The notes beneath the pieces are model-generated. The model had not been told where the DNA came from and did not search any database. It worked only from the letters and a program-made list of their open reading frames with translations. Positions 33,970 to 62,502 of a stretch of 64,000 bases of DNA are shown in pieces; the stretch's first letter is position 1, and every line of letters starts with the position of its first letter. The position numbers were made by a program, and so were the translations under genes. Location: the NCBI GenBank assembly GCA_011033025.1, contig WFMF01000317.1, positions 60,001 through 124,000 on the forward strand, in the 5' to 3' direction. The DNA comes from Beroe forskalii. Taxonomy: Eukaryota > Ctenophora > Nuda > Beroida > Beroidae.

Positions 33970-33979
33970 TTATATATAA
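33970..33979 (+). promoter_or_regulatory. Putative TATA box of the left oxidase
   Basis: TTATATATAA about 50 bp before the ATG at 34028. The same element is kept in the right arm (59456-59465). Confidence 0.45.
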
Positions 33980-34027
33980 GATTTCACTATTTTACTAACT
34001 CTTTACAAAACACTAGGAAGTAAGGTA

Positions 34028-35646
34028 ATGAAAGAAATATTTCTGGCATTATGGGGATTGTGTTTTTACATTGCTTCTCCTAAATCAACTTTTGAATATT
34101 GCATGTCTTATAATGAAACTTGTTGGCCTACTCAGCTGGAGTGGAATGAATTGAGCAAAAATATTACTGGTGGAAAAGTATATAATATAGGTGATTCTTC
34201 TGAATATAGTTTATCTTGCTCTGCTCAATCCACTACCTATGGTGCTGCCTACAAGCTTGAAAACAATGGAGAAGGAAGATGTATGCAATACCACGATTGC
34301 TCAAAGAAAAGGTGTGATTCATCATTGATTGGAATATTCCACAATTTTCAGTACAGGCATATAATGAAAATGATGTTGTTGAAGCAATCAGATTTGCCAA
34401 CAAGCATAATATCCAAGTGGTTGTCAAGACTTCAGGGCATAATTATGCTGGTTCAAGTATGGGTGAGGGTGCACTCTTAATTTGGATGAGGAAGTTTGAA
34501 AAAATAAGCACTGTGAAAAATAACTATATTGTTTGTGGAGAAACATATGAGGCTGCATTACATGTGGGTGGTGGTGAGGTATGGGAAGAGGCTTATAAGG
34601 CAGTAGGTAACTCATATCACATAGTTGGTGGAGGCGGTCTCACAGTTTCAGCAGCCGGGGGATGGTTGATGGGTGGTGGACTTTCAGCTTCTTCAAGACT
34701 CTATGGCATGGGGATTGACCAAGTGACTGACTTCAAAGTTGTGCTGGCTGATGGGTCAATAGTCACTGCTAGCAAATGTGAAAATGAAGATCTTTTTTGG
34801 GCCCTTCGTGGAGGTGGTGGTGGAACATTTGGTGTGATTCTAAGTGTGCACTATCAGCTACATGAGACAAAGCCATTTTGTGAGTTATCATTTGCAACAA
34901 CTGACTTTTATGCACCGTTCTGGAACACTAAAACCATTTATAAATGGATAGATCTTCTTGTAGATGAAGCCCCATCACTAAGTCAAAATTGGGGAGGCTA
35001 TTGGGGACTTAACTGGGGAATTTTCTATTATGAAGGTGAGGAAGAGGACATGTTGAAAGATAGCTTTTACCAAGGTATAAGAGCACTTGGTTACATTGAT
35101 TCTTCACTCAGGTGTGATGAATCATACTTTGCACTTCGAGGTGGTCCTGATGAAATGACCACTGATCAAACAGGTCAAGATGAGTTCAACATTGCTAGTC
35201 GACTGATTCCTTTGGAATATGTAACAAATCAGCCTGATAAAGTGAAAGAAACGTTAAAATGGATGGTTCACAATGGATTCTACACTTTCAACTATATCAT
35301 TGGTGGTAGGATGTCGCAAGTTGATCATGATGCAACTGCTGTTCATCCAGCTATGAGAAAGTCAGTATTTCAAATAGAAACTTTTGATGAGAGATTAATA
35401 CAGAAGCTACGAGATGAATTCCCCGATTCGGGTGCAGGGTTTAATCATGCTGCAAAAGATGAACCTGACTGGGAAAATCAGTTCTGGGGCTCCAACCTTG
35501 AGCGCTTGAAATCACTCAAATTAAAGTATGACCCCGAAAACAGATTCAACTGCTGGCACTGCATTGGATATATTGACAGCTCAACTATGAGCATCTCAGC
35601 TGCTCATTACCTTGTGACTGCCTTGTTTTTGAGAACTCTTATTTAG
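34028..35646 (+). pseudogene. FAD-linked oxidase (berberine-bridge-like), left copy, frameshifted
   Basis: Single-exon gene of the FAD-binding PCMH plus BBE C-terminal family, which oxidises alcohols, sugars or related substrates using covalent FAD. It has a hydrophobic signal peptide (LALWGLCFYIA) and a Cys-rich N-terminus, so it is likely secreted. KTSGHNYAGSS supplies the histidine expected to bind FAD (about residue 138), WALRGGGGGTFGV is the flavin-loop motif and LKYDPENRF is the BBE motif near the end. The family's second flavin anchor, a cysteine before the VxGGGxxxG loop, is absent (SYHIVGGGG), so mono-covalent FAD is expected. One G is missing near 34327 relative to the right copy (TTGATTGG versus TTGGATTGG), breaking the frame after about 100 codons. 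The C-terminus is intact and ends in a hydrophobic stretch. Confidence 0.88.
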
Positions 35647-38414: not shown

Positions 38415-41400
38415 ATGTCCCTTCAAGACTTGAGCATAAGTGGGTCCCCAACTCCTCGAGCTGTTTCCCGTAGGGCTGTCAGTGCACGGCACCAACGAGT
38501 CCAGGCTAGTGTCAAGGAGGACGCCGCCAACAAGGCTCAGGGGGTAAGTCACATGGTCACAAAGTTATAAATTCTGCTATATATAAGTATATAGTCTTCT
38601 ATACTTCTATACAATGATTTTCTGCGTGATTTTAACGGGTGAGTGGACTGATGTCAAAATTTGAATCTTGTCCGAATTTAAGAGTTATCCTTTACAATTG
38701 CAATGCCTTTTCCATCAGAAGGGCCTAGTCAGAACTCAGAATGGACTTTTGTCAGAAGTGAACCTGAGTGCGAGATACCTTAGCTTATAGGGCTATACGA
38801 TTTGATTTAAAAAAAGTGTTACGAGTATATGGAAAAGACAATTTATGTTTAATTGTTTAAATCACTGGCGAGTTATTTTGGGTCAAATGACATTTGATTA
38901 TTTCTTGGCTTATACAGTAAATAATTCAGTTTGATCAATAGAATAGACAAATATTTTTCCCTCCCCCTCTTGCCTCTTGTCTGACAAAAAGGCATTGAGA
39001 ACTGAGGGGGGTTGGCAATGGACAAGTTCAGAAAAGTTCTGGAAAATTTGTACATACTACCTCCACAGCGGTAACCATGCTGACAACCAATCAAAGAGGA
39101 GTATTCACTTTGCACGTGCAGTGTGCACGCCTGCTAGCGAATACATGCTAGCAGTTTATGTACAATTTCTTCAGAGTTCCAGAAAATGCATATACTAAGG
39201 GTAATTCATAATGATTTGCACTTGGATCATAGATCAAGACCTGTAAGAGTAAATTAAAAAATAATGCTTGAGCGATAATTTTCAGACAATTTTACGTTAG
39301 AAACAGTCATTCGTCATAATTTTATCGTAGAATAAACAGCCGATTGAAGTATCTTTCGATTTCTGATTACATCAACGCTTTGTGTCACTGTTAACAAAAT
39401 AATTTTCCCATGTGTTGGAACGAACATAACTCAAGTTGTGGTAGTCTGATCTTAAAAATTTTTATACCAATTCAAGGTATAAATAACACAAATGACCTCG
39501 CAAAATTATATTCAAATTCGATATAAAACTGCAAAGTTATGAATTTTTAATCGATACCATTTAGAAAGTTCATAAATTTTGAAGAAGGCGGACTTTAAAA
39601 ATTCGTATCTGGCGCATTTTAAGGGTTAGGTTACTCGTTTTTACAGCATTTGTGGTGCTTGATATTTTCAACATATGTTTGAAACGAGACGTATATGCAA
39701 CCATAGTGGAACAAGTTATGAACAATTTTATGCATTTTGGGTTAAAAAGCTACGAAATTTCCTGGCCTCAATTTTCTAACAGCGAGTTTGGGATTTTCGT
39801 GATTCCTCTTTGGTTCTGGTATATTCCTTTGAAAATACTTCTCTTAGATCAAAATTTTAAGCTCTACAACATGGTGAAGTCCTCATGAGTCTAACTAGTC
39901 AGCACAAAAAGATATAGAGTGATTTCTATCACTCTAAGGGGATTCTAGGTGATGCAAAGCGGCATAACATGCTTCAGTACTTTATTTATCTGTTTAAGAA
40001 CCTCTGAAGCTCCTAGAACCCTGCCGAGCGGCAACAAATACCGGAGTGGTTCCTATTACAAGTTGCGATAGTCGTTTTTCAGTTTCGTTATTCTGACAGG
40101 CATTTATTGCTTACATGCAAATCATTATGAAATGCACTTGTAATAACTATAAATTTACACGTGATGTGTAATTCAGCCGATGTGCCGGCTAGAGGGTAGA
40201 CTGAATGACTATAATTTTCTGATTGGGCGGCTATCAGAATTTCATTTAAACTTGAATTTTAATATCAAAAGTAGTAAAGGACCATTTCAGGCAATAAAAA
40301 TGATCCAATTGTTGCGATATGAAAGTAATCAGCAAATTGAATAAGTTAAGGGACTAGCTTCTGAAAAATTTCAGAGATAACGGGGGAGGGAAATTAAGCG
40401 CCTGCATACAGGACCTACAAATAACAAGAATTGTGCCGGCAGGCGCAATTCTTGTTCATTAGATTTTCCATTCAAATAGGGTGCTGTCATAACCAAAGAA
40501 AAGCTTGCCTTAGCAAAGAAGCTTGCCTACTATCAAACTGAAGTGGATAATGATAAGAAAGTTTCTGATAACCATGTTGGAAAGGTTCGAAGGATACGTT
40601 TGGTTTTTCGGCCTTAAATCATTTTTGGCATCATTGAATCTTTTTTATTCATAAGATAATGACATTTGCATGAATCTCTGAGCATTTTAAACTATGAGCA
40701 TGATATTAAATCATTCTTTTCTTTTTTACATGCAAATAATATGATGGAAATGTAGTTGCAATATATTAGTAAACCCATCATGTCTCCTTCAGAGAGAAGC
40801 CCCTCGTGCCTCTAACCCTCCCAATCTCGCTGCTCCTCCTGCACCCACGCTCACTGCCCCTCGGGAGTCAGTTGCTCCCCGGATCCGGAGCAAAACCTCC
40901 AAAACAAGTGCCGTGCCTCCCCTCAAGTTAAACCTCCTAAAGCGGCCCGGCAGTGCTGGCTATCATGTGACTCCTGGCCTGGAATCCTCACGCTCAGTCC
41001 TCAGTTGGGGAGAAGACTCATTCAGACGACCTGCTGAGGTGTCCCGTACTGAGGCGCCCCGTGCTGAGGTGCCCCGTGCTGAGGTGCCCCGTGCTGAGGT
41101 GTCCCGCGCTGAGCCGCCCCGTGCTGAGGTGTCCCGTGCTGAGCCGCCCCGTGCTGAGGATGTCCAGGAGAAGCAGCAGGAGAATGTTGGAGAAAATGTC
41201 AACAATCACAATAACAGTGTAGGTATGCTGGCTGTAACGAAATTATGCATTGTGATTTACAGAATTTCTGAAGACGCAAAAGAAATTTGATATATAACTG
41301 ATACTGACATGAAACATTCGTAGTCACGTACTGCGTAGAGAATCTAAAGGTGAAAGTACCTATAAGAATTAAAAAGCCAAAAGTAATAATAATCATGGAG

Positions 41401-44400
41401 TAATAATAAGTAATAATAATAGGTAATAATAAGTAGTAATAATCATGGAGAAATCATGGAGAAAAATTTTTACATATAAAAGTCAAAAGATGAGGGGCCA
41501 AAAAGCTGGTCAACACATGCCAGTTATGGAGAAGTGAGCAACTAAGAGCTCATCAAATCTCGACAGAAGTGAGCACAATTTTTGTACTTTTGTAAAAGTA
41601 TATTTTTGATGCAGATAGCTGCAGAAGAAGAAGAAGGTCCTGCAAGCCCCGGTGGAGACTCTGACGATGAACTCACTGGTCAGCCCCTCGGATTCCATGC
41701 TTTTGAGACGGAGGTTTGGACAGAATAATGTACGGAAATATGAATACTATAGATACTTGATACTATAGATACTAGATACTATAGATACTAGAGTCTAGAT
41801 ACTATAGATACTAGATACTATAGATACTAGATGCTATAGATACTAGATACTATAGATACTAGATACTTAGATCGACGATACGTGGAATGATTGATAGATT
41901 TTTTGATAAAAAATGTCTAAATCTATGCCAATAAAGCATTGATTAAGTTCATTTCAAATGTATGCGATCCTTAGGAAGAAGGAGTGAAGAGGAAGCGGAA
42001 ATCAGAGGCGGTAGAATCGCAGATGGTTCAGGACTTGACTCAGCCTGAGACAACCCTAGAACAGCGTGCCCTGAGCACTCCCTGGGCAACCTCTGAACGG
42101 AGCTACACGCCTCAGAGATACACACCGACCCAGCCCTTAGATTCAGAGAGGGCTGATTTCTACGCCCTCAAAGAGATTCCCCGAGTTAAGCGTCTGGATA
42201 GAGTGCTCCATTCCACCAGCAGTGAGCTGACATTCGACCACCTCACAAACAGAGGAGTTAGTCACAGAGTCTCCTTCAAAGTCAGGATCATCAGCAGGTT
42301 AGTCACAGACTCCCAGAATAAAGTGAAGGATGAGAAGCAAATCTAACTAGATTGCCCCAGTGTCTCCGGTTCACATATCCATTGGCATGGGAATTGTCGG
42401 GTCTGGAATTATATTTCTCTAGTTTACCCAATCAAAATTTGTCAAGATATCATTGCGACCATTAACTACATAGGGATTGTCATACCCCTCTCATTGCCAC
42501 ATTTCAGATGTGCCAGAGACAGTTTGCGGGATCTGTACGCCTACTTTTTCGTGTCAGATGGTTCACTTGCTGTGTACGAATACAAAGAAATGGGAAAGAG
42601 GTATCCATTTATTGCTTACTTGCTTGGTATTCAATGTCATGAATAGGGCGTCTTGATAAGACATAATTCCTGTATTGGTCATTACACAAAATTATACGGA
42701 ACACAATGGATTCTATTATAAACTATGATAAATGATGAATTATCAGCGAAGAAATTTACTGATTAGCACTTTATCCATTATGTAAGTATTAAGTAGTAAA
42801 TATCGTCACAAATTAGCAACAGAGAACTTAGTACAGTAAAAACATTCGACTACGTAACTGTCCTTTCGCTGTTCCATGAATTCAATGCTCTTCAACCATC
42901 GATGGCCCAGTGGATAAGGTGTCAGACTTGAAATTTGATGGGCAATGCTGCAAGGCGCCAATAGATTTTTGACTTTGTCCTTTTGTCCAGCCGTGACAAC
43001 TTCCCTTGCAGGTGGTCAGTGAGCCCCTTCTTCCCCCGTGCTGACAACTTCCCTTGCAGGTGGTCAGTGAGCCCCTTCTTCCCCCAAAGCTGACAACTTC
43101 CCTTGCAGGTGGTCAGTGAGCCCCTTCTTCCCCCGTGCTGACAACTTCCCTTGCAGGTGGTCAGTGAGCCCCTTCTTCCCCCGTGCTGACAACTTCCCTT
43201 GCAGGTGGTCAGTGAGCCCCTTCTTCCCCCGTGCTGACAACTTCCCTTGCAGGTGGTCAGTGAGCCCCTTCTTCCCCGTGCTGACAACTTCTCTTGCAGG
43301 TGGTCAGTGAGCCCCTTCTTCCCCCGTGCTGACAACTTCCCTTGCAGGTGGTCAGTGAGCCCTTCTTCCCCGTGCTGACAACTTCCCTTGCAGATGGTCA
43401 GTGAGCCCCTTCTTCCCCCGTGCTGACAACTTCCCTTGCAGGTGGTCAGTGAGCCCCTTCTTCCCCCACGTGCCGTGTATTACCACTCTGCAGGGGCGTG
43501 CTGACAACTTCCCTTGCAGGTGGTCAGTGAGCCCTTCTTCCCCGACAACTTCCCTTGCAGGTGGTCAGGGCCTCCCTCCACCTCCCCACGAGCAACAACC
43601 CCGCCCTGCCCCCCTCCATCACAGGTGGTCAGGGCCCCTCTTCCCCCGTGCAAACTCAGGTGGTCACATAGCACCCCCGTGATGACAACTTCCCTTGCAG
43701 GTGGTCAGTGAGCCCCTTCTTCCCCGTGCTGACCTCATCAGTATAGTGTGAGTTGTCATTGTGACCTCATTAGGTATAGTGTGCCCCTCTTCCCCGTGTG
43801 ACAACTCATTGCAGGTGCTGTTCCCTTGCATTGGTCAGTGACCTCATTAGCTATAGTGTGCAGGTGTCAGTGAGCCCCTTCAGTATAGTGCAGTTGTCAT
43901 AGTGACCTCATCAGGTATCAGTGAGCCCCTTCTTCCCCCCGTGTGACAACTTCCCTTGCAGGTGGTCAGTGAGCCCCTTCTTCCCCGTGCTGACAACTCC
44001 CCTTGCAGGTGGTAGTGTGAGTTGTCCCTCGTGACCTCATCAGTGGTCAGTGAGTTGTCATATTGACCTCATTAGTATAGTGTGAGTTGTCATAGTGACC
44101 TCATCAGTATAGTGTGAGTTGTCATAGTGACCTCATTAGTATAGTGTGAGCTCTTCCCCGTGCTGACAACTTCCTTGCAGGTGGTCAGTGAGCCCCTTCT
44201 TCCCCCGTGCTGACAACTTCCCTTGCAGGTGGTCAGTGAGCCTCTTCCCCGTATAGTGTGAGTTGTCATTGTGACCTCATCAGTATAGTGTGAGTTGTCA
44301 ACCCCTACTCTGAGCATCAAGATAGGGTGAGTTGTCGTTGTGACCTCATTAGTATAGTGTGAGTTGTCATAGTGACCTCATCAGTATAGTGTGAGTTGTC

Positions 44401-47400
44401 ATAGTGACCTCATTAGAATAGTGTGAGTTGTCATAGTGACCTCATCAGTATAGTGTGAGTTGTCATAGTGACCTCATCAGTATAGTGTGAGTTGTCATAG
44501 TGACCTTATTCTTATAGTGTGAGTTGTAAGAATGACCTCATCAGTATAGTGTGAGTTGTCATAGTGACCTCATCAGTATAGTGTGAGTTGTCATAGTGAC
44601 CTTATTCTTATAGTGTGAGTTGTAAGAATAACCTCATCAGTATAGTGCGAGTTGTCATTGTGACCTCATCAGTATAGTGTGAGTTGTCATAGTGACCTCA
44701 TCAGTATAGTGTGAGTTGTCATAGTGACCTCATCAGTATAGTGTGAGTTGTCATAGCGACCTCATTAGTATAGTGTGAGTTGTCATAGTGACCTCATCAG
44801 TATAGTGCGAGTTGTCATAGTGACCTCATCAGTATAGTGTGAGTTGTCATAGTGACCTCATCAGTATAGTGTGAGTTGTCATAGTGACCTCATTAGTATA
44901 GTGTGAGTTGTCATAGTGACCTCATTAGTATAGTGTGAGTTGTCATAGTGACCTCATCAGTATAGTGTGAGTTGTCATAGTGACCTCATCAGTATAGTGT
45001 GAGTTGTCATAGTGACCTCATCAGTATAGTTTGAGTTGTCATAGTGACCTCATCAGTATAGTGTGAGTTGTCATAGTGACCTCATCAGTATAGTGTGAGT
45101 TGTCATAGCGACCTCATTAGTATAGTGTGAGTTGTCATAGTGGCCTCATTAGTATAGTGTTAGTTGTCATAGTGACCTTGTTAGTATAGTGTTAGTTGTC
45201 ATAGTGACCTCATCAGTATAGTGTGAGTTGTCATAGTGACCTCATTAGTATAGTGTGAGTTGTCATAGTGACCTCATCAGTATAGTGAAAAAGTGTGAAT
45301 TGTCATTGTGACGTGATTAGTTACTCTGTTGTCATAGTAACCTAAGAACCTAGTAGCCTATTATACTGCAGTATCCCTTGTTTTGAGCTATTCTTGATCC
45401 TACAAACTTACAAAGTAGTTTGTAGTTCGTGGTTGTCATAGTCACTGCCTGGAAAGTACATTATCATGATGGCTGGCATCATAGGTTCCAAATAACAATG
45501 TAGGATAATAGGTACAGTGCATGGTAACTCTGTAAGATTTGGCAGATGTTGAACTTGCAGTCAGCGCCGATACACCGCCGATAGGCGCTGATCGGGCCCA
45601 ATCAGCGCTGATCAGCGGTACCGCCGATCAGCGCCGATGGAAAAATTTAATTCTCATCGGCGATTGTCGGCGCTGATTAGCGCTGGTCGGCGCCGATTGC
45701 CTAAGATTGTAGCTTATAACTTAATTTCATGATAAAGTATTAAGAGAATGGAATGATAATGGGATAATTTTGGAGCTGTTGTTTTGTTGAGTCAGCAGAC
45801 CGCAGAGCTACAGCTGTGGAACGAGCTCAACAGTCCCCACTGCTTCTATTGCTTTCTCTCAAACGAGTGTAACACGTGGCCATCTATTGCTGCTTTCTCT
45901 CACTACCTCACTCAAACGAGTGTAACACGTGGCCATCTTAACAATCAACTTAACATTTAACAGGGTGATCATCTAGTAACAATGGTTACATCTTTAACAA
46001 TGCGATTACCTCTGCTGCATTTCAGGCACAACGGATGCAGGATTGATGAGAGAGCTGAAAGAGAGGAATGTCTCAAAAGATACGTGTCTCCGGAAGAAAA
46101 ATGTAGAATCAGAAACTTGGAAAATGTCCAAAGTATGCGTGCTATGATGACCGAATTACATTGAGAAGCATGTCTGCTTGCTTTCTTCATTTCTTGTGCA
46201 ATTTGAACGAGATTTTACATTTTTATATTCTTAGGTAGGAAACTACTTTTCATGGTCTCGTGCCAGTGTTAAGGAACAAAAGAGAATCATGCCTAAATTT
46301 TTACATTGTTAGGTTCCCTTCCTACCTGCTTTGGCAAAATCGTTGCAACTTTAAAACTGTGACTTATATTTTCAAAGACACCTCTTTAAGAATCAAGCCC
46401 TAAGCTTTTCTGCATTTTGATTTAAAAGCATATTTTAAAGCACAAATCTCCTAAACATCATGCTTCCCATAGATCAGATCAAAGAACAGCTAAAGTCTCG
46501 TCCTGTGAGGTCTCTGGTGGGTTTGGGACACTACTTCCTGCTCCATGACAAAGATAAGGATGGCTTCTGGAGGGCTGACGAGCTGCAGGCGGTTCTAAGG
46601 ACCTTCAGGATACAGCTGCCTCACAGTGTGAGTAGCGATTAGTGGCTCTAGATTACTCCAACTTCCTACATAGAGTTGCAGCTGCCTCACAGTGTAAATT
46701 GAGTAAAGTTGAGTAAAGTTGAGTAAAGTTGAGTAAAGTTGAGTAAAGTTGAGTAAAGTTGAGTAAAGTTGAGTAAAGTTGAGTAAAGTTGAGTAAAGCT
46801 GAGTAAAATTAAGTAAAGCTGAGTAAAATTGAGTAAAGTTTACCCGTAAGTCTGCATTCCGTGATCCTCAGGACTTCGTGCTGTTTTTCAACATTCTTGA
46901 CGAGGACGGGAGCGGCTTGCTGGACGTTGGGGAGTTTCTGCGAGGCATGCTGGGAGAAATGTGCGAGGCCAGAGTGGGCCTCGTGACTCGTGCCTGGCTG
47001 AGGATGGACCCTGGGAAACGCGGGGAGGTGTCCTTCGTGACAGTGAGACAATTCTACAACCCGGCCATTAGCTTCGACCCTAGAACAGGTAATATACGAT
47101 GTGATGTATTAATTTTGGTGTGAGTTTGGTAACGGAAAGTTTTCCTAATTTCAACGTGAACTGTAATCCACGAAAACATATACCTAGTTGGGGGCTGGCA
47201 AGCAAAGTCTACTGATAGCATCGCCGTCCAATGCTCGCCCTCGGGCTTGCCAACTGCCGCGGGGGCTTGCCAACCCCTGATATATACTTGTTGATGCGAA
47301 ATTCTATCAGAAATCACGAAAAACATTTCAAAACAGTTGTTTCATACTTTCTTAACAAGTATTTGACTATTTGATGGCTAATAGATCATGAATTCGTCAT

Positions 47401-48958
47401 TTGAAATCGGTCATAAATTCATTGAAGGTTTGAAATTTTTGCTAAAATTATGTCAAGAGTTCATTTTTCAGCAGCTAGTGTACTTAACGCGCGCGCGCCG
47501 CAAGCAAATCTGGCAATTCTCCAATATAACTCGCGAGCCTTCATAATCTATGACAATGACGTCACTCTGAAAATTTATTTAGGGTTAGGATTCTGGATTA
47601 GGATTTGTTAGGTTTAGGGTAAGGAGGTTTTGTTGTTAAACGTCACTCAGTCAGACTTCAGAGTATGGGAGACATACTGCATATCCTAGTTTACAACGGA
47701 CTCGACCGGACCGAACTGTGGATTGTGGAAATATAATCATAAGTTGGATATCATGATCTGTATTTCTGTAATCATTAGTTGAACGCGTTTTCAGACAGTA
47801 AGATGACAAGAGAGGAACTTATTGAAGAGTTCTTAGACTGTTTCTCTGCCGGACCATTGAACCAGAAGATCACATTCTGTGTGAGTAGATTCGAGCTTTT
47901 AGCCTCCTGAGTAACACCAGAGCCGTAATGTAATTCACATCTGAGTTATGCGGTGGACTCTCTGCGGGTCAACCGGCGCTATCCATAGCTGCTGAACTGC
48001 CCTCCTATTGGGATGGCGCCCCCAATTCCCAAGCCCTCCCTTTGCCCTCCCTTAGAACCTTGCCCTCCTTTGTGGATGGCAAATCTGAAAATTTACCTAT
48101 AATGGGGGTGTCACTGTCCCAAACTGAAGAAAAAAGCGGATTTGGGACAGGGACAAATGTGACTAAAGGGGACGGAGAAAATGGAACAAATGGAATTCAA
48201 AAAGTGGATGCGGACTGGGGCAATTGGGAAATATGGGACAAGAGTGACAGAGACAACTGAGGCTGAAATTTTTGTGTTTTTGAGCGGCAGTTTAGTGTTT
48301 TTTTTCTTACAGCCTTTTACTCTTTTACAATATCGGGGATCCATTTAAGGATACTGCCCGAGGGCGTAAGCCCGAGGGATGTATCTGGTTTTGGTCTGAG
48401 CCCGTAGGGCGAGGGTATAAACCCGCATGATCATTCATGGATATTGGATTCCCGCATGAAAACGTCAAAGGGTCCTATAATAGGCGAGTAGTGTTATTTT
48501 ATAGGAATTCATTTCCCCTAACTAGGGATCTGGTTAGAGCAAGGAATTCATGAATGGTTTTTGCCTGCCCTTCTTACCATTCATATATTGAATGAACCAG
48601 AAACATAGAATTGGAGGTCAATCACGTCCATTAACTGGTATGTGTGATCATAGGTCAAAATTATTAACGTCCATTTCAGTCAATAATGAAATTTTCAGTC
48701 AATAATGATGCATATGCGATATATTATATCGCATATGCATCATTATTGACTGAAAATTTCATTATCGACTGAAATGAACGTTAGAAGGGTCAGTTGACGG
48801 AATTTACAACCCATAATAACACCATTTCGTCAGTTTCAACTTTTCAATGACGCATCGCATTGTTCCAGGAGTTCGCGGATTACTACACAGCAATCAGCTT
48901 GTCCACTGCTTCCGACGAGGTTTTCACAGCACTCATGAAGCATTGCTGGAACATTTGA
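38415..48958 (+). CDS. CAPS2: Calcyphosine-2-like EF-hand protein (twelve exons; exon 7 disrupted)
   Basis: Exons 1-6: 38415-38543, 40480-40584, 40793-41218, 41615-41713, 41975-42297, 42508-42600. Exons 8-12: 46026-46132, 46473-46627, 46872-47088, 47795-47880, 48869-48958 (TGA). All use GT...AG with matching phases. The 3' half has two canonical EF-hand loops, DKDKDGFWRADE and DEDGSGLLDVGE, and a C-terminus (EFADYYTAIS) aligned with calcyphosines. The N-terminal half (FFVSDGSLAVYEYKEMGKR) matches the extension specific to calcyphosine-2. Calcyphosines are small Ca2+-binding regulators; a role in ciliated cells is family-level inference. Exon 3 carries eight 5-residue repeats (PRAEV type). Exon 7 should lie between 42601 and 46025 but is broken up inside minisatellites, so a full-length product is doubtful unless splicing avoids them. 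Confidence 0.85.
39195..40140 (+). mobile_element. 946-bp TA-inserting TIR element, copy C
   Basis: In intron 1. TA at 39193-39194 and 40141-40142. The right arm has the empty site ATATAATAAC-like at about 55645-55655 with a single TA, proving insertion after the arms separated. Contains the 78-codon frame (39652-39888). Confidence 0.93.
40424..40455. repeat. Short hairpin before exon 2
   Basis: ACAAGAATTG and CAATTCTTGT flank a GCCGGC core, ending about 25 bp before the acceptor of exon 2. Present in both arms (55342-55370). It could present or mask the acceptor in RNA; this is speculative. Confidence 0.5.
41037..41156 (+). repeat. 15-bp coding repeat in exon 3
   Basis: Eight tandem 15-bp units (GTGCCCCGTGCTGAG type) encode a five-residue repeat. 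The right arm has seven, so copy number differs between arms by one whole unit without affecting the frame there. Confidence 0.85.
41738..41872 (+). repeat. ATACTATAGATACTAG minisatellite in intron 4
   Basis: About seven short units; the right arm has essentially one (54121-54140), so this array expanded only on the left. Confidence 0.8.
42896..42948 (+). tRNA. tRNA-Ser(UGA)-like 5' half (pseudogene or SINE head)
   Basis: TGGCCCAGTGGATAAGG is a strong A box, followed by a plausible anticodon stem around ACTTGAAAT with anticodon TGA. After about 50 bases the resemblance stops and no T arm is present, so it is not a functional tRNA. The right-arm copy (about 53119-53171, minus) has the more standard GGCCGAGTGG. 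Confidence 0.55.
42993..43735 (+). repeat. 48-bp minisatellite made of the exon 7 acceptor junction (left)
   Basis: About ten consecutive units, then irregular ones. Each unit contains ACAACTTCCCTTGCAG followed by GTGGTCAGTGAGCCCC, which in the right arm are exactly the end of intron 6 and the start of exon 7. Unit length is a multiple of three, so the gene frame stays open through regular units. Pieces of exon 7 proper are embedded at 43468-43499, 43568-43623 and 43664-43676. Stray units continue to about 44240. Antisense open frames across the array are by-products. Confidence 0.92.
43728..45297 (+). repeat. 32-bp minisatellite made of the exon 7 donor junction (left)
   Basis: About thirty regular units and several irregular ones of GACCTCATCAGTATAGT|GTGAGTTGTCATAGT. 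The part before the bar is the 3' end of exon 7 and the part after is the start of intron 7 with a consensus GTGAGT donor. An exon 7 fragment (ACCCCTACTCTGAGC...GATAGG) sits inside at 44299-44327. Confidence 0.93.
45301..46025 (+). other. Intron 7, palindromic spacer begins
   Basis: Unique sequence between the arms starts here. It contains a GC-rich cluster at 45555-45705 (own entry) and a 40-bp direct duplication around AACGAGTGTAACACGTGGCCATCT (45853 and 45911). Confidence 0.5.
45555..45705. repeat. GGCGCTGATCGG-type palindromic cluster
   Basis: Many overlapping forms of CGCCGAT / ATCGGCG / CAGCGCTGATCAGCG in both orientations within 150 bp of intron 7. Strong hairpin potential; origin unknown. 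Confidence 0.65.
46675..46845 (+). repeat. Duplicated exon 9 donor junction plus 10-bp minisatellite
   Basis: GCAGCTGCCTCACAGTGT at 46677 repeats the last bases of exon 9 and its donor (46611-46629). It runs straight into about fourteen units of GAGTAAAGTT (46699-46842). Confidence 0.8.
47168..47292. repeat. Small foldback in intron 10
   Basis: ACCTAGTTGGGGGCTGGCAAGC faces GCTTGCCAACCCCTGATATA across about 80 bp, with an extra GGGCTTGCCAAC copy between. Likely a micro-MITE. Confidence 0.55.
47293..47794 (+). other. Intron 10, TTAGGG-like stretch
   Basis: Contains TTAGGGTTAGG at 47578-47588, then degenerate GGATTAGG and GTTTAGGGTAAGG. It is too short and imperfect to call a telomeric repeat. 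GCGCGCGC occurs at 47492. Confidence 0.4.
48104..48310 (-). mobile_element. GTCCC-type element remnant in intron 11
   Basis: Terminus GGGGGTGTCACTGTCCC plus GGACAAATG/GGACTGGG units and the same TTTTTGAGCGGCAGTTTAGTG flank found inverted near 9470-9500. One end only; the other TIR is missing. Confidence 0.55.
48665..48783. repeat. 119-bp near-perfect palindrome in intron 11
   Basis: 59-nt arms around a single central base, with two mismatches; the outer arms begin TAACGT(C/T)CATTTCAGTC and the centre is GCGATATA-T-TATATCGC. It lies 85 bp before the last exon's acceptor. Confidence 0.9.
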
Positions 48959-49417
48959 ATCTCTCCTGGACAAACTCAGTACTGAGAATGTCGCTGTGGA
49001 TGTATATTGGAATTTCTGTTTTATGGATTTGTGTAAGACTGACTATAGGAGTTACAGGTTGGAGGTGTTGAACTTTCGTTTTATAACACTTGGTACAATA
49101 TTTTAGACTACGTGTCTTCGTTTATTAAGGCAATTAAGAGTGCGTTGCTGTTGAAAGTCCAAACGTACGGCGAGTCTTGGAAATCTACTCATTCTTGTGT
49201 AAGAAGTTTGTTAACGTTTCATTTAGAAATGAAAGATTTTGAAATTATTTTCTTAGTCACTTTTGTTGGATTATGATATTATCAGCTTACCCATATGCTG
49301 CGTTAACTGTTACAGATTTAACTTCCATTCTTTCAGCATGCTTCCCTCTCCAATCGACTCTTTCATTTCGTTGAATAAGAGTCGCATGGTTACAATAACC
49401 AGTACTTTATTTACTTC
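48959..49417 (+). other. 3' flank of the calcyphosine-2-like gene
   Basis: Probable 3' UTR and downstream sequence. No clear AATAAA close to the stop was found. Confidence 0.4.
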
Positions 49418-49659
49418 ACTCAATGGTACAAGTACATTGTACAAATGGAAACGATGTGGTTCTTTAAGTTTAGTGACTATCACTTTCGTCGTTCTACGAC
49501 ATCTTCAGGTGTCAAATTTGATTGTATAAAATAGTGTTGTGAAATTTCAAACTTTACAACACTTTATAGTGATTATACAATCAAATTTGAGACCTGAAGA
49601 TGTCGTAGAACGACGAAATTGAAGCCACGTGTTTTCCATTTGTACTTGTACCATTGAGT
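49418..49659. mobile_element. 242-bp foldback MITE
   Basis: ACTCAATGGTACAAGTACA and its inverse form the ends. Further inverted blocks TCGTCGTTCTACGACATCTTC and ATTTGATTGTATA make arms of about 100 bp. ACTCAATGG ends occur on both sides; the target duplication is unclear. Confidence 0.65.
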
Positions 49660-50029
49660 CAAAAGAGAATATCAATAACTAAAGTTGACTCATTATATTA
49701 TAATCGCCAATTTCGTTTTACAAAAATGCAAATGAGAGGGCTAGAATTAGAAATGGACGCGGTTTGGAGGATTGTGGGAGACTTTGTGATACATACTTCC
49801 TTCATCCGTAATGTTAATTCTGAAATTGAAAAGTGTCCGGGTGGGGGGGGGGGGAATTTCCATTATCACCCTCCCGTGATCATAATTCGGGTGTGATAAT
49901 TATCGATACTAGTCGGTTCCCGTCCTACGGACGGCGATTGATGGCAGCCGCATGAGCTAACAGCCACATGTCCCTTTGACAGTGATTTGACCGTGCGAGT
50001 TTGGAGGGGAAATTCGAAACCTTAATTTC

Positions 50030-50625
50030 TGCGAAAAAAAGTTTTCCACGCCCCCAACGGTAACCCAATATTGCCGACAAAATTCTCAAAACCTTTCCTC
50101 ATCATAAGCAACTCCATAGCGAAGGAATTTTGCAAAAAATCGAAAATCTATTTTTTTGCGAAAAAAGGGCGTGGCCTCCCACGCCCCTTACGGTGACTTA
50201 ATAATTCGGACAAAATTCTCAAAACTTTCATTCATCATAAGCAACTCGATGGCGAATGAATTTTGAAAAAATTCGAAAGTTTAATTTTTGCGAAAAAAAG
50301 GGCGTGGCCCCCACGCCCCTCAGGGTGACCCAATAATTCGGACAAAATTCTCAAAATTTTTATTCACCATAAACAACTCAATGGCGAAAGAATTTTGAAA
50401 AAATTCGAAAGTTTAATTTTTGCGAAAAAAAGGGCGTGGCCCCCCACGCCCCTCAGGGTGGCCGAAAAAATCTCTCATAATTTTTCTGATTCATTAAAAA
50501 GTTTTTGCAACACGATGAAAAAATAATTTCGTTGCCTACTTGAAAACGAATCGCCAGCCATAAATAAATAAATAAATAAATAAATATATATGTATTAACA
50601 ACACGCATTATATATAGTAAGATAT
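50030..50625 (-). repeat. Dispersed repeat with hairpin-bearing minisatellite, copy 2
   Basis: Inverted counterpart of 16782-17290, with about four units of roughly 115-120 bp and the same TTTA/TA microsatellites and CGCATTATATATAGTAAGAT end. Each unit has AAAGGGCGTGGCC...CCACGCCCCT, a short stem. Confidence 0.75.
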
Positions 50626-51789
50626 CACCCCTTTAAAACTACTACTGTATAGTGGCGCGCGCAAAAATTTTCTAAAGGAGCAAATGAAGCCCAAATATAA
50701 AACCAAATCTAGGCGGTAAACAGCCATCCCGAAAAAATGAGTGCAGAAAAAAACTTGAAAAGAAATTTTGATAAAGGAGCACTTGCAAATCTATAAAGGC
50801 ATTCAATCCGGACGAGGGTCGTCGTTGTATCGAAAATTGTCAAACTCGGCTGACGCCTCGTGTGATAATTTTCGATATAACATTAATATGGTGGCCGAGA
50901 GTGGCCATCAGAAAAATGTTGTGATAAAAATTTTAAAAAGAAAAAATTATTGTGAAAAAAAAATCTGAAAAAAAAATTAAAAAAAAACTCAAACGAAAAT
51001 TTTTGTCGTTGGCCGAGATTGGCCATATACAGGGCGACATGCGCGCGCGCAGAATTGCGTGCGCGCAATTTTTGTACAGTAAATCGTCGTGTGGCGATAT
51101 TGCCAGGCGTTGCCTGGCCTCGCGCGCGCGCCCCGACTCGCAGGGCAGGCAACGTCTGGCAATGGCGATAGCGCCCACTTATTCTCCGTAGACATCGGTC
51201 AAGCTTCACTTTTTCGTTTGAGTTTTTGCCGATTCATGCAGCTGTTCAGTCAAATTTTAATGAAGAGAATGAATGGCACTTTGACGTGGTCTCTCAGCTC
51301 ATTACTTAAGTATCTAATACCTTGATGAATTCCGAATGAAAACCATTTTAAACTTCAAGACAATTAAAACGCCGTCATCTTAGGGATATTTCGACAAATG
51401 CTTGATTTCATTTTCAACTTGAATTTGGATAATTTATTTAACAATGCTTACAAGCGAATATATGATACCTAGTTTACAAGCACACAGAAGATGATCTATA
51501 AGGACATTGTGGTTCGTGAGGCGGGACACGCTGCTATAGTATTCTATATCAGTATCTATTCTACGGGAGTCGGCATAGGTAATTAATGAGCGAAAACTCA
51601 ATTTGTTTTCAAGCCTAGACATAACACTCTAAAACCGTAGTGGAGGGAAATCAGAAGGTACATTCCAGATAATTATTGAGTAGGTAATCCGCTCAATTTG
51701 TTCTCAAGTCTGGTGAAATTTCTCTGAAAATAAACACGAACCATACCGTATATAAAAAAGGTCATATGACACCACACAAACTGATGAGG
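50626..51789. other. Spacer with a CpG-rich patch, no gene
   Basis: 50930-51010 is A-rich; 51029-51170 is CG-rich with GCGCGCGC runs and the inverted pair TTGCCAGGCGTTGCCTGG / GGCAACGTCTGGCAA, the same motif as at 12.8 and 28.2 kb. The rest is AT-rich. No exon supported. Confidence 0.45.
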
Positions 51790-52409
51790 TCACAAACCCT
51801 CACACACTATTCCTAATTTTAGGTCACTATGAAAACTCACACTATACTGATATTAAGTCTATGACAACTCACACTATACTAATGAGGTCACAACGACAAC
51901 TCACCCTATACTGATGAGGTTACTATGACAACTCACACTATACTGATGAGGTCACAATGACAACTCACACTATACTGACGAGGTCACTATGACAACTCAC
52001 ACTATACTGATGAGGTCACTATGACAACTCACACTATACTAATGAGGTCACTATGACAACTCACACTATACTGATGAGGTCACTATGACAACTCACACTA
52101 TACTAATGAGGTCAATATGACAACTCACACTATACTGATGAGGTCACTATGACAACTCACACTATACTAATGATGTCACAATGACAACTCACACTATAAG
52201 AATAAGGTCACTATGACAACTCACACTATACTGATGAGGTCACTATGACAACTCACACTATACTGATGAGGTCACTATGACAACTCACACTATACTAATG
52301 AGGTCACAATGACAACTCACACTATACTGATGAGGTCCACTGACAGCTCACACTATTAGGGGTCAATGACAACTCACACTATACTGATGAGGTCACTATG
52401 ACAACTCAC
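51790..52409 (-). repeat. 32-bp donor-junction minisatellite (right)
   Basis: About eighteen units of the same sequence as 43728-45297, directly continuing from the true donor of exon 7 at 52408-52409. Confidence 0.92.
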
Positions 52410-55400
52410 ACTATACTGATGAGGTCATCAGGTGCTATGTCCGCTACTCTGAGTTGCAGTAGAGGTGCCCGTGTGATGGAGGGGGGCAGGGCGGGGTTGT
52501 TGCTCGTGGGGAGGTGGAGGGAGGCCCCTATCTTCAGATCACTCAGCGAGTAGGGGTTGCCTAGCAACGCCCCTGCAGAGTGGTAATACACGGCACGTGG
52601 GAAGAAGGGGCTCACTGACCACCTGCAAGGGAAGTTGTCAGCACGGGGGAAGAAGGGGCTCACTGACCATCTGCAAGGGAAGTTGTCAGCACGGGGGAAG
52701 AAGGGGCTCACTGACCACCTGCAGGGGAAGTTGTCAGCACGGGGGAAGAAGGGGCTCACTGACCACCTGGGGAAGTTGTCAGCACAGGGGAAGAAGGGGC
52801 TCACTGACCACCATAAAGGGAAGTTGTCAGCACACACACGTGGGAAGAGGGGCTCACTGACCACCTGCAAGGGAAGTTGTCAGCACAGGGGAAGAAGGGG
52901 CTCACTGATGACCACCTGCAAGGAAGTCCAGTCCTTTGGGGAAGAAGGCTCACTGACCACCTGCAAGGGAAGTTGTCAGCACGGGGGAAGAAGGGGCTCA
53001 CTGACCACCTGCAAGGGAAGTTGTCAGCACGTGGGAAGAAGGGGCTCACTGACCACCTGTGATGGAAGTTGTCACGGCTGGACAAAAGGACAAAGTCAAA
53101 AATCTATTGGCGCCTTGCAGCATTGCCCATCAAATTTCAAGTCTGAGACCTTATCCACTCGGCCATCGATGGTTGAAGAGCATTGAATTCCTGGAACAGC
53201 GAAACGACAGTTACGTAGTCGAGTTTTTTTTACTGTACTCTGTTGCTAATTTGTGACGATATTCACTACTTAATACTTACATAATGGATTTAAAAGTGCT
53301 AATCAGTAAATTTCTTCGCTGATCATTCACCCCTGACCCTTTAAAAATTCATGACATTGAATACCAAGCAAGTAAGCAATAAATAGATACCTCTTTCCCA
53401 TTTCTTTGTATTCGTACACAGCAAGTGAACCATCTGACACGAAAAAGTAGGCGTACAGATCCCGCAAACTGTCTCTGGCACATCTGAAATGTGGCAATGA
53501 GAGGGGGATGACAATCCCTATGTAGTTAATGGTTGCAATGATATCTTGACAAATTTTGATTGGGTAAACTAGAGAAATATAATTCCAGATCCGACAATTC
53601 CCATGCCAATGGATATGTGAATCGGAGACACTGGGACAATCTAGTTAGATTTGGTTCTCATCCTTCACTTTATTTAGGGGAGTTTGCAACTAACCTGCTG
53701 ATGATCCTGACTTTGAGCGGAACTCTGTGACTAACTCCTCTGTTTGTGAGGTGGTCGAATGTCAGCTCACTGCTGGTGGAATGGAGCACTCTATCCAGAC
53801 GCTTAACTCGGGGAATCTCTTTGAGGGCGTAGAAATCAGCCCTCTCTGAATCTAAGGGCTGGGTCGGTGTGTATCTCTGAGGCGTGTAGCTCCGTTCAGA
53901 GGTTGCCCAGGGAGTGCTCAGGGCACGCTGTTCTAGGGTTGTCTCAGGCTGAGTCAAGTCCTGAACCATCTGCGATTCTACCGCCTCCGATTTCCGCTTC
54001 CTCTTCACTCCTTCTTCCTAAGGATCGCATACATTTGAAATGAACTCAATCAATGCTTTACTGGCTTTGATTTAGACATTTGTCAAAAAATCTAATACAT
54101 ATCCCACGTATCGTCGATCTATGTATCTAGTATTCATATTTCCGTACATTATTCTGTCCAAACCTCCGTCTCAAAAGCATGGAATCCGAGGGGCTGACCA
54201 GTGAGTTCATCGTCAGAGTCTCCACCGGGGCTTGCAGGACCTTCTTCTTCTTCTGCAGCCATCTGCATCAAAAACGTACTTTTACAAAAGTACAAAAATT
54301 GTGCTCACTTCTGTCGAGATTTGATGAGCTCTTAGTTGCTCACTTCTCCATAAGTGGCATGTCTTCACCAGCTCTTTGGCCCCTAATCTTTTGCCTTTTT
54401 TAGTTATGAACAAACAAATATGTAAAAATTTATCTCCATAATGATTATCATTACTTTTGACTTTCTATACTCTTACCTATAGATTCTATCCGCAGTGCGT
54501 GACTACGAATGTTTCATTTCAGCATCAGTTATATATAAAATTTCTTTTGCGTTTCAAGAATTCTCTAAATCACAATGCATAATTTCGTTACAGCCAGCAT
54601 ACCTACACTGTTATTGTGATTGTTGACATTTTCTCCAACATTCTCCTGCTGCTTCTCCTGGACATCCTCAGCACGGGGCACCTCAGCACGGGGTGCCTCA
54701 GCACGGGGCGGCTCAGTACGGGGCACCTCAGCACGGGGCACCTGAGCACGGGGCGCCTCAGTACGGGGCACCTCAGCAGGTCGTCTGAATGAGTCTTCTC
54801 CCCAACTGAGGACTGAGCGTGAGGATTCCAGGCCAGGAGTCACATGATAGCCAGCACTGCCGGGCCGCTTTAGGAGGTTTAACTTGAGGAGGGCACGGCA
54901 CTTGTTTGGAGGTTTGCTCCGGATCCGGGAGCAACTGACTCCCGAGGGGCAGTGAGCACGTGGGTGCAGGAGTAGCAGCGAGATTGGGAGGTTATGAGGC
55001 TTCTCTCTGAAGGAGACATGATGGGTTATTAATATTTCAACTCCATTTCCATCATATCATTTGCTTAAAAAAAGAAAAAGAATTAATATCATGCTCATAG
55101 TGCAAAATGCTCAGAGATTCATGCAAATGTCATTATCTTATGAATAAAAAAGATTCAATGATGCCAAAAATGATTTAAGGCCGAAAAACTGCAAACGTAT
55201 CCTTCGAACCTTTCCAACATGGTTATCAGAAACTTTCTTATCATTATCCACTTCAGTTTGATAGTAGGCAAGCTTCTTTGCTAAGGCAAGCTTTTCTTTG
55301 GTTATGACAGCACCCTATTTGAATGGAAAATCTAATGAACAAGAATTGCCGCCTGCCGGCACAATTCTTGTTATTTGTAGGTCCTGTATGCAGGCGCTTA

Positions 55401-56434
55401 ATTTCCCTCCCCCGTTATCTCTGAAATTTTTCAGAAGCTAGTCCCTTAACTTATTCAATTTGCTGATTACTTTCATATCGCAACAATTGGATCATTTTTA
55501 TTGCCTGAAATGGTCCTTTACTACTTTTGATATTAAAATTCAAGTTTAAATGAAATTCTGATAGCCGCCCAATCAGAAAATTATAGTCATTCAGTCTACC
55601 CTCTAGCCGGCACATCGGCTGAATTACACATCACGTGTAAATTTATAGTTATTATATGCATTTTCTGGAACTCTGAAGAAATTGTACATAAACTGCTAGC
55701 ATGTATTCGCTAGCAGGCGTGCACAGTGCACACTGCACGTGCAAAGTGAATACTCCTCTTTGATTGGTTGTCAGCATGGTTACCGCTGTGGAGGTAGTAT
55801 GTACAAATTTTCCAGAACTTTCTGAACTTATCCATTGCCAACCCTCCTCAGTCCTCAATGCCTTTTTGTCAGACAAAGAGGCAAGAGGGGGAGAGAAAAA
55901 TATTTGTCTATTCTATTGATCAAACTGAATTATTTACTGTATAAGCCAAGAAATAATCAAATGTCATTTGACCCAAAATAACTCGCCAGTGATTTAAACA
56001 ATTAAACATAAATTGTCTTTTCCATATACTCGTAACACTTTTTTTAAATCAAATCGTATAGCCCTATAAGCTACTTAGGTATCTCGCACTCAGGTTCACT
56101 TCTGACAAAAGTCCATTCTGAGTTCTGACTAGGCCCTTCTGATGGAAAAGGCATTGCAATTGTAAAGGATAACTCTTAAATTCGGACAAGATTCAAATTT
56201 TGACATCAGTCCACTCACCCGTTAAAATCACGCAGAAAATCATTGTATAGAAGTATAGAAGACTATATATAGCAGAATTTATAACTTTGTGACCATGTGA
56301 CTTACCCCCTGAGCCTTGTTGGCGGCGTCCTCCTTGACACTAGCCTGGACTCGTTGGTGCCGTGCACTGACAGCCCTACGGGAAACAGCTCGAGGAGTTG
56401 GGGACCCACTTATGCTCAAGTCTTGAAGGGACAT
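52410..56434 (-). pseudogene. Calcyphosine-2-like gene, N-terminal half only (right copy)
   Basis: Exons 56306-56434 (ATG at 56434), 55210-55314, 54607-55006, 54164-54262, 53695-54017, 53391-53483 and 52410-52622. Exon 7 is intact here: WSVSPFFPRAVYYHSAG at its start and DIAPDDLISI at its end, matching the calcyphosine-2 segment between the N-terminal extension and the EF-hands, with phases that fit exon 6 and exon 8 of the left gene. Exon 3 is 400 bp against 426 on the left: one 15-bp unit fewer plus several small deletions that break its frame. No EF-hand exon follows on this strand. It could give at most a truncated protein; it also documents what left exon 7 looked like. Confidence 0.85.
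52590..53078 (-). repeat. 48-bp acceptor-junction minisatellite (right)
   Basis: About ten units ending at intact exon 7 (first acceptor adjacent to it at 52623-52624). The minus-strand frame runs open from about 52870 through the regular units into exon 7, so any of several acceptors would be usable in frame. Confidence 0.92.
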
Positions 56435-57787
56435 TCTCAGTTTTTAAAATACAGTAATTATATGAGAATATGAAAATATAGATAATATTATATTCAGGCC
56501 GATAGCAGCCCTCTCACATACTGTACTTCGATAAATGCCACAATCATATACAGGAAGCTTTAATGGTAACTTTTACAATAACTTCCCGTTAAGCCATTTC
56601 CATGAAAACTTCCAGGGAATTATTTTCAAGTTTCGAAATGCAGAAATGTTGCCACCAGTAAAAGTTATTTCGATTTTTGTCATTAAAATCATGTAATTGA
56701 ATAGATACTTAACAACAAAATGAAAAGTAAGTTCATTCAAACTTTATTATCATGATATTAAATAATCTTACACTATTATTATCTTATAATTTGTTATAAA
56801 TATCATATTATAGTTAGTCATTTAGGTTAACTAATTATCAAATTTCCAAAACGCATTATTTACAAAATACACAATAATATAATACATGATACATCTCACT
56901 TGGCGACACTTCACACAACGTCACTTGCAAATTTTGAAAAAAGTACGGATTGAAACCATAGATAGCAATCCAATAATTGACTAAAGCGAAGTATTTAATT
57001 TCATGAAGGTGCAAAGTGAAAATAGTTCATTTAATCTTGATCGTGCTAAACCACGTGAATTTTGTTCCCTGCGATGATTGCAAGATGATTTTAGTTCTGA
57101 CAACTGATTTTCATGCTGACATTTTGCTTTGTTCACATTAATTCAGGCCAGGAACTGTCTTCGTTATGTCCTAAACCTACCCTATTGGACAGAATTATCA
57201 CGGACTCATGATTCACTGACCTAAAACTTGATGCTCGATCCTGCCATTTCAAATTTTAAACAAAAATTCGAAATTTTTGGCAGAATTTTCCCACTTTCTT
57301 ACACGATTTGAATACTTAAATTGAAGATTTTTTGTTAATTGAATATGAATTTTCATATCGCTGTCACCAAGGACAAAAAATACAATTTTCTTGAGAATTT
57401 CATTATTTGCACGTTTAGAGAGGGGCAATGCAGGACTTAATTATCATGGACCTGAATATTACGGACATAAGTATCTCGGACATAATTTTCAAGGACATTA
57501 ATATTCACACTGAGGTGGTCAGCGTGACTTTATTGTCCATGATGAGGTATCATACATGTAATCAATATAATTATTGTATGATGCTTTGCTTGGTATACTC
57601 ATCTAGAGTTTTTTTGAAATGATCAGTTGGCCTTTAAGCATTATGTTTATTTATTTAGTTATTTAACTGAACTGCTTCAAATATTGAAAATTTATGGTAA
57701 TTTAACAAGTATCAAAATTTTATCAAGATTTTAAATCTATACTTCTATCAAGTATTAGATTTTCACACAGTGGAATCAAATAAGTAC
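56435..57787. other. Intergenic region of the right arm
   Basis: Counterpart of 35647-38414 without the 1.4-kb block (junction at about 56547). Contains short GGACATAATTTTCAAGGACATTAA-like iterations (57430-57500) and no gene. Confidence 0.6.
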
Positions 57788-59407
57788 CTAAATAAGAGTT
57801 CTCAAGAACAAGGCAGTCACAAGGTAATGAGCAGCTGAGATGCTCATAGTTGAGCTGTCAATATATCCAATGCAATGCCAGCAGTTGAATCTGTTTTCGG
57901 GGTCATACTTTAATTTGAGTGATTTCAAGCGCTCAAGGTTGGAGCCCCAGAACTGATTTTCCCAGTCAGGTTCATCTTTGCAGCATGATTAAACCCCTGC
58001 ACCCGAATCGGGGAATTCATCTCGTAGCTTCTGTATTAATCTCTCATCAAAAGTTTCTATTTGAAATACTGACTTTCTCATAGCTGGATGAACAGCAGTT
58101 GCATCATGATCAACTTGCGACATCCTACCACCAATGATATAGTTGAAAGTGTAGAATCCATTGTGAACCATCCATTTTAACGTTTCTTTCACTTTATCAG
58201 GCTGATTTGTTACGTATTCCAAAGGAATCAGTCGACTAGCAATGTTGAACTCATTTTGACCTGTTTGATCAGTGGTCATTTCATCAGGACCACCTCGAAG
58301 TGCAAAGTATGATTCATCACATCTGAGTGAAGAATCAATGTTACCAAGTGCTCTTATACCTTGGTAAAAGCTATCTTCCAACATGTCCTCTTCCTCACCT
58401 TCATAATAGAAAATTCCCCAGTTAAGTCCCCAATAGCCTCCCCAATTTTGACTTAGTGTTGGGGCTTCATCTACAAGAAGATCTATCCATTTATAAATGG
58501 TTTTAGTGTTCCAGAACGGTGCATAAAAGTCAGTTGTTGCAAATGATAATTCACAAAATGGCTTTGTCTCATGTAGCTGATAGTGCACACTTAGAATCAC
58601 ACCAAATGTTCCACCACCACCTCCACGAAGGGCCCAAAAAAGATCTTCATTTTCACATTTGCTAGCAGTGACTATTGACCCATCAGCCAGCACAACTTTG
58701 AAGTCAGTCACTTGGTCAATCCCCATGCCATAGAGTCTTGAAGAAGCTGAAAGTCCACCACCCATCAACCATCCCCCGGCTGCTGAAACTGTGAGACCGC
58801 CTCCACCAACTATGTGATATGAGTTACCTACTGCCTTATAAGCCTCTTCCCATACCTCACCACCACCCACATGTAATGCAGCCTCATATGTTTCTCCACA
58901 AACAATATAGTTATTTTTCACAGTGCTTATTTTTTCAAACTTCCTCATCCAAATTAAGAGTGCACCCTCACCCATACTTGAACCAGCATAATTATGCCCT
59001 GAAGTCTTGACAACCACTTGGATATTATGCTTGTTAGCAAATCTGATTGCTTCAACAACGTCATTTTCATTATATGCCTGTACTGAAAATTGTGGAATAT
59101 TCCAATCCAATGATGAATCACACCTTTTCTTTGAGCAATCGTGGTATTGCATACATCTTCCTTCTCCATTGTTTTCAAGCTTGTAGGCAGCACCATAGGT
59201 AGTGGATTGAGCAGAGCAAGATACACTATATTCAGAAGAATCACCTATATTATATACTTTTCCACCAGTAATATTTTTGCTCAATTCATTCCACTCCAGC
59301 TGAGTAGGCCAACAAGTTTCATTATAAGACATGCAATATTCAAAAGTTGATTTAGGAGAAGCAATGTAAAAACACAATCCCCATAATGCCAGAAATATTT
59401 CTTTCAT
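57788..59407 (-). pseudogene. FAD-linked oxidase (berberine-bridge-like), right copy, premature stop
   Basis: Intronless, ATG at 59407, open for 472 codons: signal peptide, PCMH-type FAD domain with the SGHNYAGSS histidine and the RGGGGGTFG loop, and most of the substrate domain. Near 57990 GGG has become GGGG, creating an in-frame TAA. About 14 bases later AAAA has become AAA, which restores the frame for the BBE tail (KYDPENRF) and the normal stop at 57788-57790. The left copy is intact at both places but broken near its own residue 100. As both changes are homopolymer length differences, this may be a functional gene with consensus errors. Confidence 0.85.
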
Positions 59408-59455
59408 TACCTTACTTCCTAGTGTTTTGTAAAGAGTTAGTAAAATTGTGAAATC

Positions 59456-59465
59456 TTATATATAA
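59456..59465 (-). promoter_or_regulatory. Putative TATA box of the right oxidase
   Basis: TTATATATAA about 50 bp before the ATG at 59407, conserved between arms. A 3-kb element lies 22 bp upstream of it. Confidence 0.45.
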
Positions 59466-59487
59466 AGTAAAATCACACGTGAATAAT

Positions 59488-62497: not shown

Positions 62498-62502
62498 ATA
62501 AT

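Follow-up and report, generated by a model that had tools for sequence, protein, structure and literature searches.

How can both splice borders of a single coding exon come to lie within separate minisatellites? This question is raised by a 64,000-nucleotide stretch of the genome of the ctenophore Beroe forskalii (GenBank assembly GCA_011033025.1, contig WFMF01000317.1, positions 60,001 to 124,000 of the forward strand; hereafter the window), in which exon 7 of a CAPS2 (calcyphosin-2)-like gene is associated with a 48-bp array at its acceptor border and a 32-bp array at its donor border. The arrays occur in both arms of an inverted duplication, with exon 7 intact in the right arm and in pieces in the left. 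We favor, with a probability of about 0.7, the reading that two "mirage" minisatellites were seeded, one at each splice border of exon 7, that they are nearly neutral, and that, if the assembly is correct, they later broke up the exon in the left arm. Mirages are minisatellite-like tandem duplications with a unit that spans an intron-exon border, described in amphioxus genes (PMC3087553, PMC3902484). The exon and its arrays are as follows.

52410..52622, minus strand: intact exon 7, 213 bp, in the PH/DM10-like domain of CAPS2, open and in frame between exons 6 and 8
52593..53074, minus strand: right-arm acceptor array, about ten 48-bp units (Tandem Repeats Finder and segmentation)
51759..52427, minus strand: right-arm donor array, about 20 units of 32 bp comprising the exon end plus GTGAGT, inner edge degenerate
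42994..43473, plus strand: left-arm acceptor array, ten 48-bp units with unit variants common to the right arm (Tandem Repeats Finder and segmentation)
43474..44340, plus strand: left-arm mixed block, exon 7 fragments among 48-bp, 32-bp and hybrid units (segmentation and exact-match segmentation)
44341..45343, plus strand: left-arm donor array, about thirty 32-bp units, inner edge degenerate; the inverted repeat ends here

Both exon 7 junctions quoted in a preliminary description of this DNA were found at 52410-52622 on the minus strand, bounding 213 bp that keep frame with exons 6 and 8 and are 58-60% identical in translation to Mnemiopsis residues 350-421 and Bolinopsis residues 353-424. Tandem Repeats Finder placed the 48-bp array at 42994-43467 (9.9 copies) and 52593-53074 (10.0 copies), and the 32-bp array at 44251-45287 (32.2 copies) and 51821-52427 (19.2 copies). 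The same description had called the first array a tandem of the acceptor junction and the second a tandem of the donor junction, and segmentation, made against one exon-7 template, agrees: in both arms the acceptor junction falls within the 48-bp unit and the donor junction within the 32-bp unit, and each unit combines intron and exon bases.

Patterns taken from the two units were searched for in the 216-Mb assembly. Among the matches listed, all 21 for the acceptor junction (20 bases, at most one mismatch) and all 44 for the donor unit (29 bases, at most two mismatches) lie on this contig, either in the arrays themselves or in the mixed block that separates the left-arm ones, and reversed control patterns gave 0 matches in the same assembly. 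The likeness of the units to the exon borders is therefore not chance similarity. At the protein level, the Mnemiopsis and Bolinopsis orthologues (2/2) align across both exon 7 borders with no gap, and the peptides encoded by the exonic parts of the units lie inside this alignment, with WSVSPFFPRA of the acceptor unit opposite VSASPFYSRG and VTASPLFPRT, and DDLISIV of the donor unit opposite AETLSLL and EDVLSLV. Because the exonic halves of the units align gap-free with orthologous proteins, the arrays appear to have grown from the borders, rather than the borders from the arrays. The proposal that exon 7 is coding, and that each of its borders was expanded from one ancestral border into its own minisatellite, is thus supported by comparison of the units with the assembly and the orthologues. 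We rejected the idea of an unrelated satellite that happens to adjoin the exon, given that all listed matches of both unit patterns lie at this locus and that the exonic halves are coding and aligned with orthologues; the check on this point, as on the coding nature of exon 7, was made on orthologous proteins. The two units also share an 8-base inverted word, TGACAACT (P 0.0085, 2000 letter shuffles), and one 461-nt fold has a z of -2.03, with 4/100 shuffles folding equally well, which hints only weakly at a possible RNA hairpin between the arrays.

The surrounding gene is divided between the arms of the inverted duplication and its spacer.

33631..62813, no strand: inverted duplication, arms about 33631-45343 and 51749-62813 (self-comparison)
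38415..42600, plus strand: CAPS2 exons 1-6, left arm (tblastn with Mnemiopsis and Bolinopsis proteins)
exon 1 from 38415, 40480-40584 and 40793-41222, plus strand: left-arm exons 1-3 (tblastn)
41615-41713, 41975-42297 and 42508-42600, plus strand: left-arm exons 4-6 (tblastn)
46026..48958, plus strand: CAPS2 exons 8-12, EF-hand part, downstream of the left arm only
46026-46132, 46473-46627, 46872-47088, 47795-47880 and 48869-48958, plus strand: exons 8-12 individually
53391..56434, minus strand: CAPS2 exons 1-6, right-arm copy

The borders of left-arm exons 2-6 were placed by motif. Self-comparison gave identities of 82-98% for collinear arm pieces of at least 900 bp, and showed that about 900 bp are inserted in the left arm. 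The 5' half of the gene is present in both arms; exons 8-12, its 3' half, are located in the spacer and oriented as the left arm, and each of them has a single match across the assembly. When exons 5-12 are spliced, with exon 7 taken from the right arm, they form one open frame of 427 residues, for which only two proteins passed a threshold of E 1e-3, one from Mnemiopsis (66% identical) and one from Bolinopsis (65%, "calcyphosin-2-like"), both matching along the full query. Pfam assigns this product an EF-hand_7 pair above the cut-off (E 4.8e-12), with PH_CAYP2 (E 8.4e-5, 22.7 bits against a cut-off of 27) and DM10 (E 0.0085) both under their cut-offs. The two matches, one of them named calcyphosin-2-like, point to a ctenophore genome, and the gene is most likely a CAPS2 orthologue. 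Read in the frame that exon 2 predicts, exon 3 of the right arm soon reaches a stop; a different frame is open over its whole length, and small indels are present at short runs. In the assembled sequence, the full protein is not encoded in the expected frame by either copy, which may reflect biology or assembly error. An inversion of the spacer that would supply exons 8-12 to the intact exon 7 is possible in principle; it was not adopted, given the stop in right-arm exon 3. In both arms, exon 3 carries a coding 15/30-bp minisatellite (PRAEV-type repeats; 41032-41165 and 54666-54778) with unequal copy number between arms.

That exon 7 is bracketed in both arms, as previously described, stands for the arrays, which are present in both; the exon itself is intact in the right arm only. 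In the left arm, pieces of it were recognized at 43474-43496 (23 bases), 43568-43621 (54 bases) and 44299-44314 (16 bases, within the 32-bp array), with a doubtful fourth at 43666-43673 that, at 8 bases, is short enough for chance. Counting AG before (G/A)TGGTC as an acceptor and GTGAGT as a donor, the left arm has 18 acceptors and 32 donors, and none of the 107 acceptor-donor pairs tested gives an open exon. At the sequence level, exon 8 follows exon 6 in frame when exon 7 is skipped. Exact-match segmentation of the mixed block identified 14 switches between unit types or exon, seven of which overlap by 1-5 bases; in this selected half, the mean overlap is 2.57 as opposed to 0.69 for random joins (P 0.00015), which is only suggestive of microhomology at the switches. 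As for the order of events, if units are counted outward from the exon, CAGATGG occurs in number two of either arm; if they are counted from the far end of the acceptor array, a CCCAAAG-type unit is number two on the left and number three on the right. Given such common variants at the same or adjacent places, the acceptor array either predates the separation of the arms or was later copied between them. In both arms, the inverted repeat stops inside the donor array, where the units are decayed and look unlike those of the other arm.

The state of the left arm allows a further reading, in which paired mirages are a route to exon loss: array-array joining would consume the exon and leave in-frame skipping, the left arm being a snapshot of this process and the right arm its earlier state. 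We consider this possible, if rather doubtful. Less probable, and in our judgment unlikely, is that the left-arm block, and perhaps the inverted duplication too, is an artefact of assembly or amplification and that the real locus consists of a single gene whose exon 7 is whole and flanked by mirages. The arms are broken at complementary places (exon 7 on the left, exon 3 on the right), the indels of right-arm exon 3 sit at short runs as noted above, and the mirage of the amphioxus globin gene BflGb6 was seemingly misassembled in the amphioxus genome draft, according to its authors (PMC3087553). Against such an artefact, the arms differ in many ways, in array length, in the insertion of about 900 bp and in sequence, with identities of 82-98%. 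The readable switches, moreover, share 1-5 bases only, and usual assembly overlaps far exceed that, an argument that does not reach chimaeras of DNA amplification.

The right arm is orderly. Each of its 48-bp units contains TGAC, which we take to be branch-point-like, followed by a pyrimidine tract, CAG/G (slash, splice junction) and the first exon bases. By the same site definitions, with pairs 21-699 bp apart, there are 9 acceptors and 18 GTGAGT donors, and 4/72 pairs are open in frame, in every case the first donor combined with one of the four acceptors closest to the exon. The 48 bases make up 16 codons that are open in the exon frame, so the acceptor array is frame-neutral over a short distance; exons that extend beyond the first donor are never open. 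The arrangement is compatible with a structure that does no harm while the exon-proximal sites are used. The same anatomy could be read as a functional array, in which choice among the nearest 3' splice sites would lengthen the PH-like domain of CAPS2 by 0, 16, 32 or 48 residues (repeats of RWSVSPFFPRADNFPC), the minisatellite setting protein length. The four open in-frame exons and the 16 open codons of the unit would allow this, an open reading frame at 52406-52879 (minus strand) crosses several units, and in human UBC the number of monomers varies through a tandem array of dual-specific AGGT splice sites (PMC10809524). Nevertheless, both orthologues are without an insert at this place, the right arm is without exons 8-12 and has the stop in exon 3, and one open frame in a 48-bp unit is not improbable. 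We therefore regard variable protein length as improbable.

Whether splice borders are special was judged against the genome background. In 18 random 10-kb genome pieces (180 kb), 23 arrays (period 10-150, at least 5 copies) account for 7.6% of bases, over half of that in one piece. A border was scored as duplicated if at least 21/28 bases were matched nearby. By this criterion, 3/21 CAPS2 borders are duplicated as compared with 30/300 random 28-mers from the spacer, the three being both borders of exon 7 and the donor of exon 9, beside which lies a 10-bp array of GTAAAGTTGA (14.8 copies).

46628..46840, plus strand: exon 9 donor border, with one extra copy at 46694 (21/28 bases), then the 10-bp array

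In myosin genes, sampled as 31 of 78 exon matches in five genome stretches and with borders taken approximately as the ends of profile matches, 3/62 borders have a nearby duplicate, a lower rate than the 81/600 of random positions in the same loci; at positions in the random pieces the rate is 135/600, or 91/600 leaving out piece L029. One of the three myosin duplicates is a true acceptor mirage, consisting of about eight 34-bp units that span TTTCAG/TTCAAC at the motor exon FNSFEQLCIN (by eye and Tandem Repeats Finder). The other two, together with an array 19 bases from an exon match, are by eye intronic arrays beside a splice site that do not span it.

L045 2474-2748 (G000:C225:1033074-1033348), minus strand: myosin acceptor mirage, myosin identity confirmed
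L044 1441-1712, L045 336-1195 and L048 565-660: intronic minisatellites beside myosin splice sites, two at acceptors and one at a donor

Neither the 21 CAPS2 borders nor the 62 borders of the sampled myosin genes are thus enriched in duplicates, so no border-specific process is needed. A border-directed process, tied for example to splicing or transcription, that amplifies splice junctions could claim the three duplicated borders of a single gene and the acceptor mirage of a myosin gene, but in the face of rates that do not exceed those of random positions we give it the slimmest chance of all.

Under the favored reading of two mirages, one seeded at each border of exon 7, a short duplication over the acceptor border and another over the donor border would have arisen in a minisatellite-rich genome and enlarged by slippage or unequal exchange. 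Extra units would cost little, as the exon-proximal acceptor and the first donor are intact in the right arm and the rest of each array would be spliced out as intron. The acceptor array, with its shared unit variants, would have arisen before the arms were duplicated, or been copied between them. In the left arm, joining or template switching among the two arrays and the exon may then have produced the fragmentation of exon 7 that is present in the assembly, and the left-arm gene would at best skip exon 7, with the frame kept on paper.

Several points weigh against this account. Selection on the splice columns of the donor units was not shown (P 0.148), and the corresponding test on acceptor units is invalid, since these units were chosen by seed and hence are biased. 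In the remaining 7/14 switches of the left block, 3-95 unmatched bases intervene. The splicing of exon 7 is predicted, and the left-arm block described, from assembled sequence, and the complementary breakage of the arms could represent consensus or phasing errors. Finally, two mirages on one exon could have a hidden common cause.

Other repeats and a second gene were observed in the window. Both arms contain this gene (34318-35646 and 57989-59455), presumably resembling an FAD-linked oxidase; it forms one 488-residue open frame in the right arm, and on the left its coding sequence is divided between two frames. Three copies, 97-99% identical, of a repeat about 950 bp long lie at 779-1733, 21360-22314 and 39192-40142; the third interrupts the left arm and is absent from the right arm by self-comparison. 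Arrays of a 172-bp unit at 19761-20755 and 22579-23121 lie in opposite orientation, about 2 kb apart.

The preliminary description knew of no described family of this type. This was incorrect, as border-spanning tandem units are of a known kind, the amphioxus mirages (PMC3087553, PMC3902484). These were described in Adh3 and the globins BflGb6 and BflGb9 (PMC3087553) and in troponin C and PGBD5 (PMC3902484); many of their units carry an AG or GT signal, copy number is variable, and regular splicing despite the arrays was reported from reverse transcription PCR (PMC3087553). No mirage outside amphioxus was found in the literature searched, mostly by title and abstract and with subscription papers not covered; by title and abstract, the ctenophore literature on minisatellites and tandem repeats held nothing of the mirage kind, and no precedent for many-unit arrays at both borders of one exon, or for exon break-up, was found in the literature searched. 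From another ctenophore, Hormiphora, heterozygous inversions and common trans-spliced leaders have been reported (PMC8527503).

Two further systems involve duplicated splice signals. In the model of Rogers (cited in PMC3087553; a potato case is given in PMC4974935), introns are gained through tandem duplication of AGGT proto-splice sites. The likeness is a duplication that carries splice signals, with AGGT at the acceptor of the 48-bp unit; the difference is that an existing intron-exon border is duplicated here and no new intron is shown. Human UBC resembles exon 7 in having tandem AGGT sites in frame with the repeat, and differs in that whole protein monomers are repeated and use of the sites was shown, whereas the exon 7 array is known from its sequence.

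The closest counterparts remain the amphioxus mirages, with which the exon 7 arrays share tandem units that span the exon-intron border and hold exonic and intronic bases, here at both borders, and the retention of AG or GT signals by many units. Variability in length can be compared here between the two arms only, the donor arrays having 19.2 and 32.2 copies. What is new, in the literature searched, is the ctenophore rather than cephalochordate host, the amplification of acceptor and donor at the same exon, and the fragmentation of that exon. In the amphioxus globins, one border per exon was described, the acceptor in BflGb6 and the donor in BflGb9 (PMC3087553), and BflGb6 has 3 and 6 units in two haplotypes as opposed to about 10 and 20-33 units at exon 7. 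The occurrence of mirages in two unrelated ctenophore genes suggests that they are tied to animal genomes rich in minisatellites, and not to a single lineage. The exon 7 locus alone, in comparison with the amphioxus mirages, includes one gene copy with a broken-up exon, and with intact and broken versions side by side, the tolerance of splice-site copies and the loss of an exon become testable.

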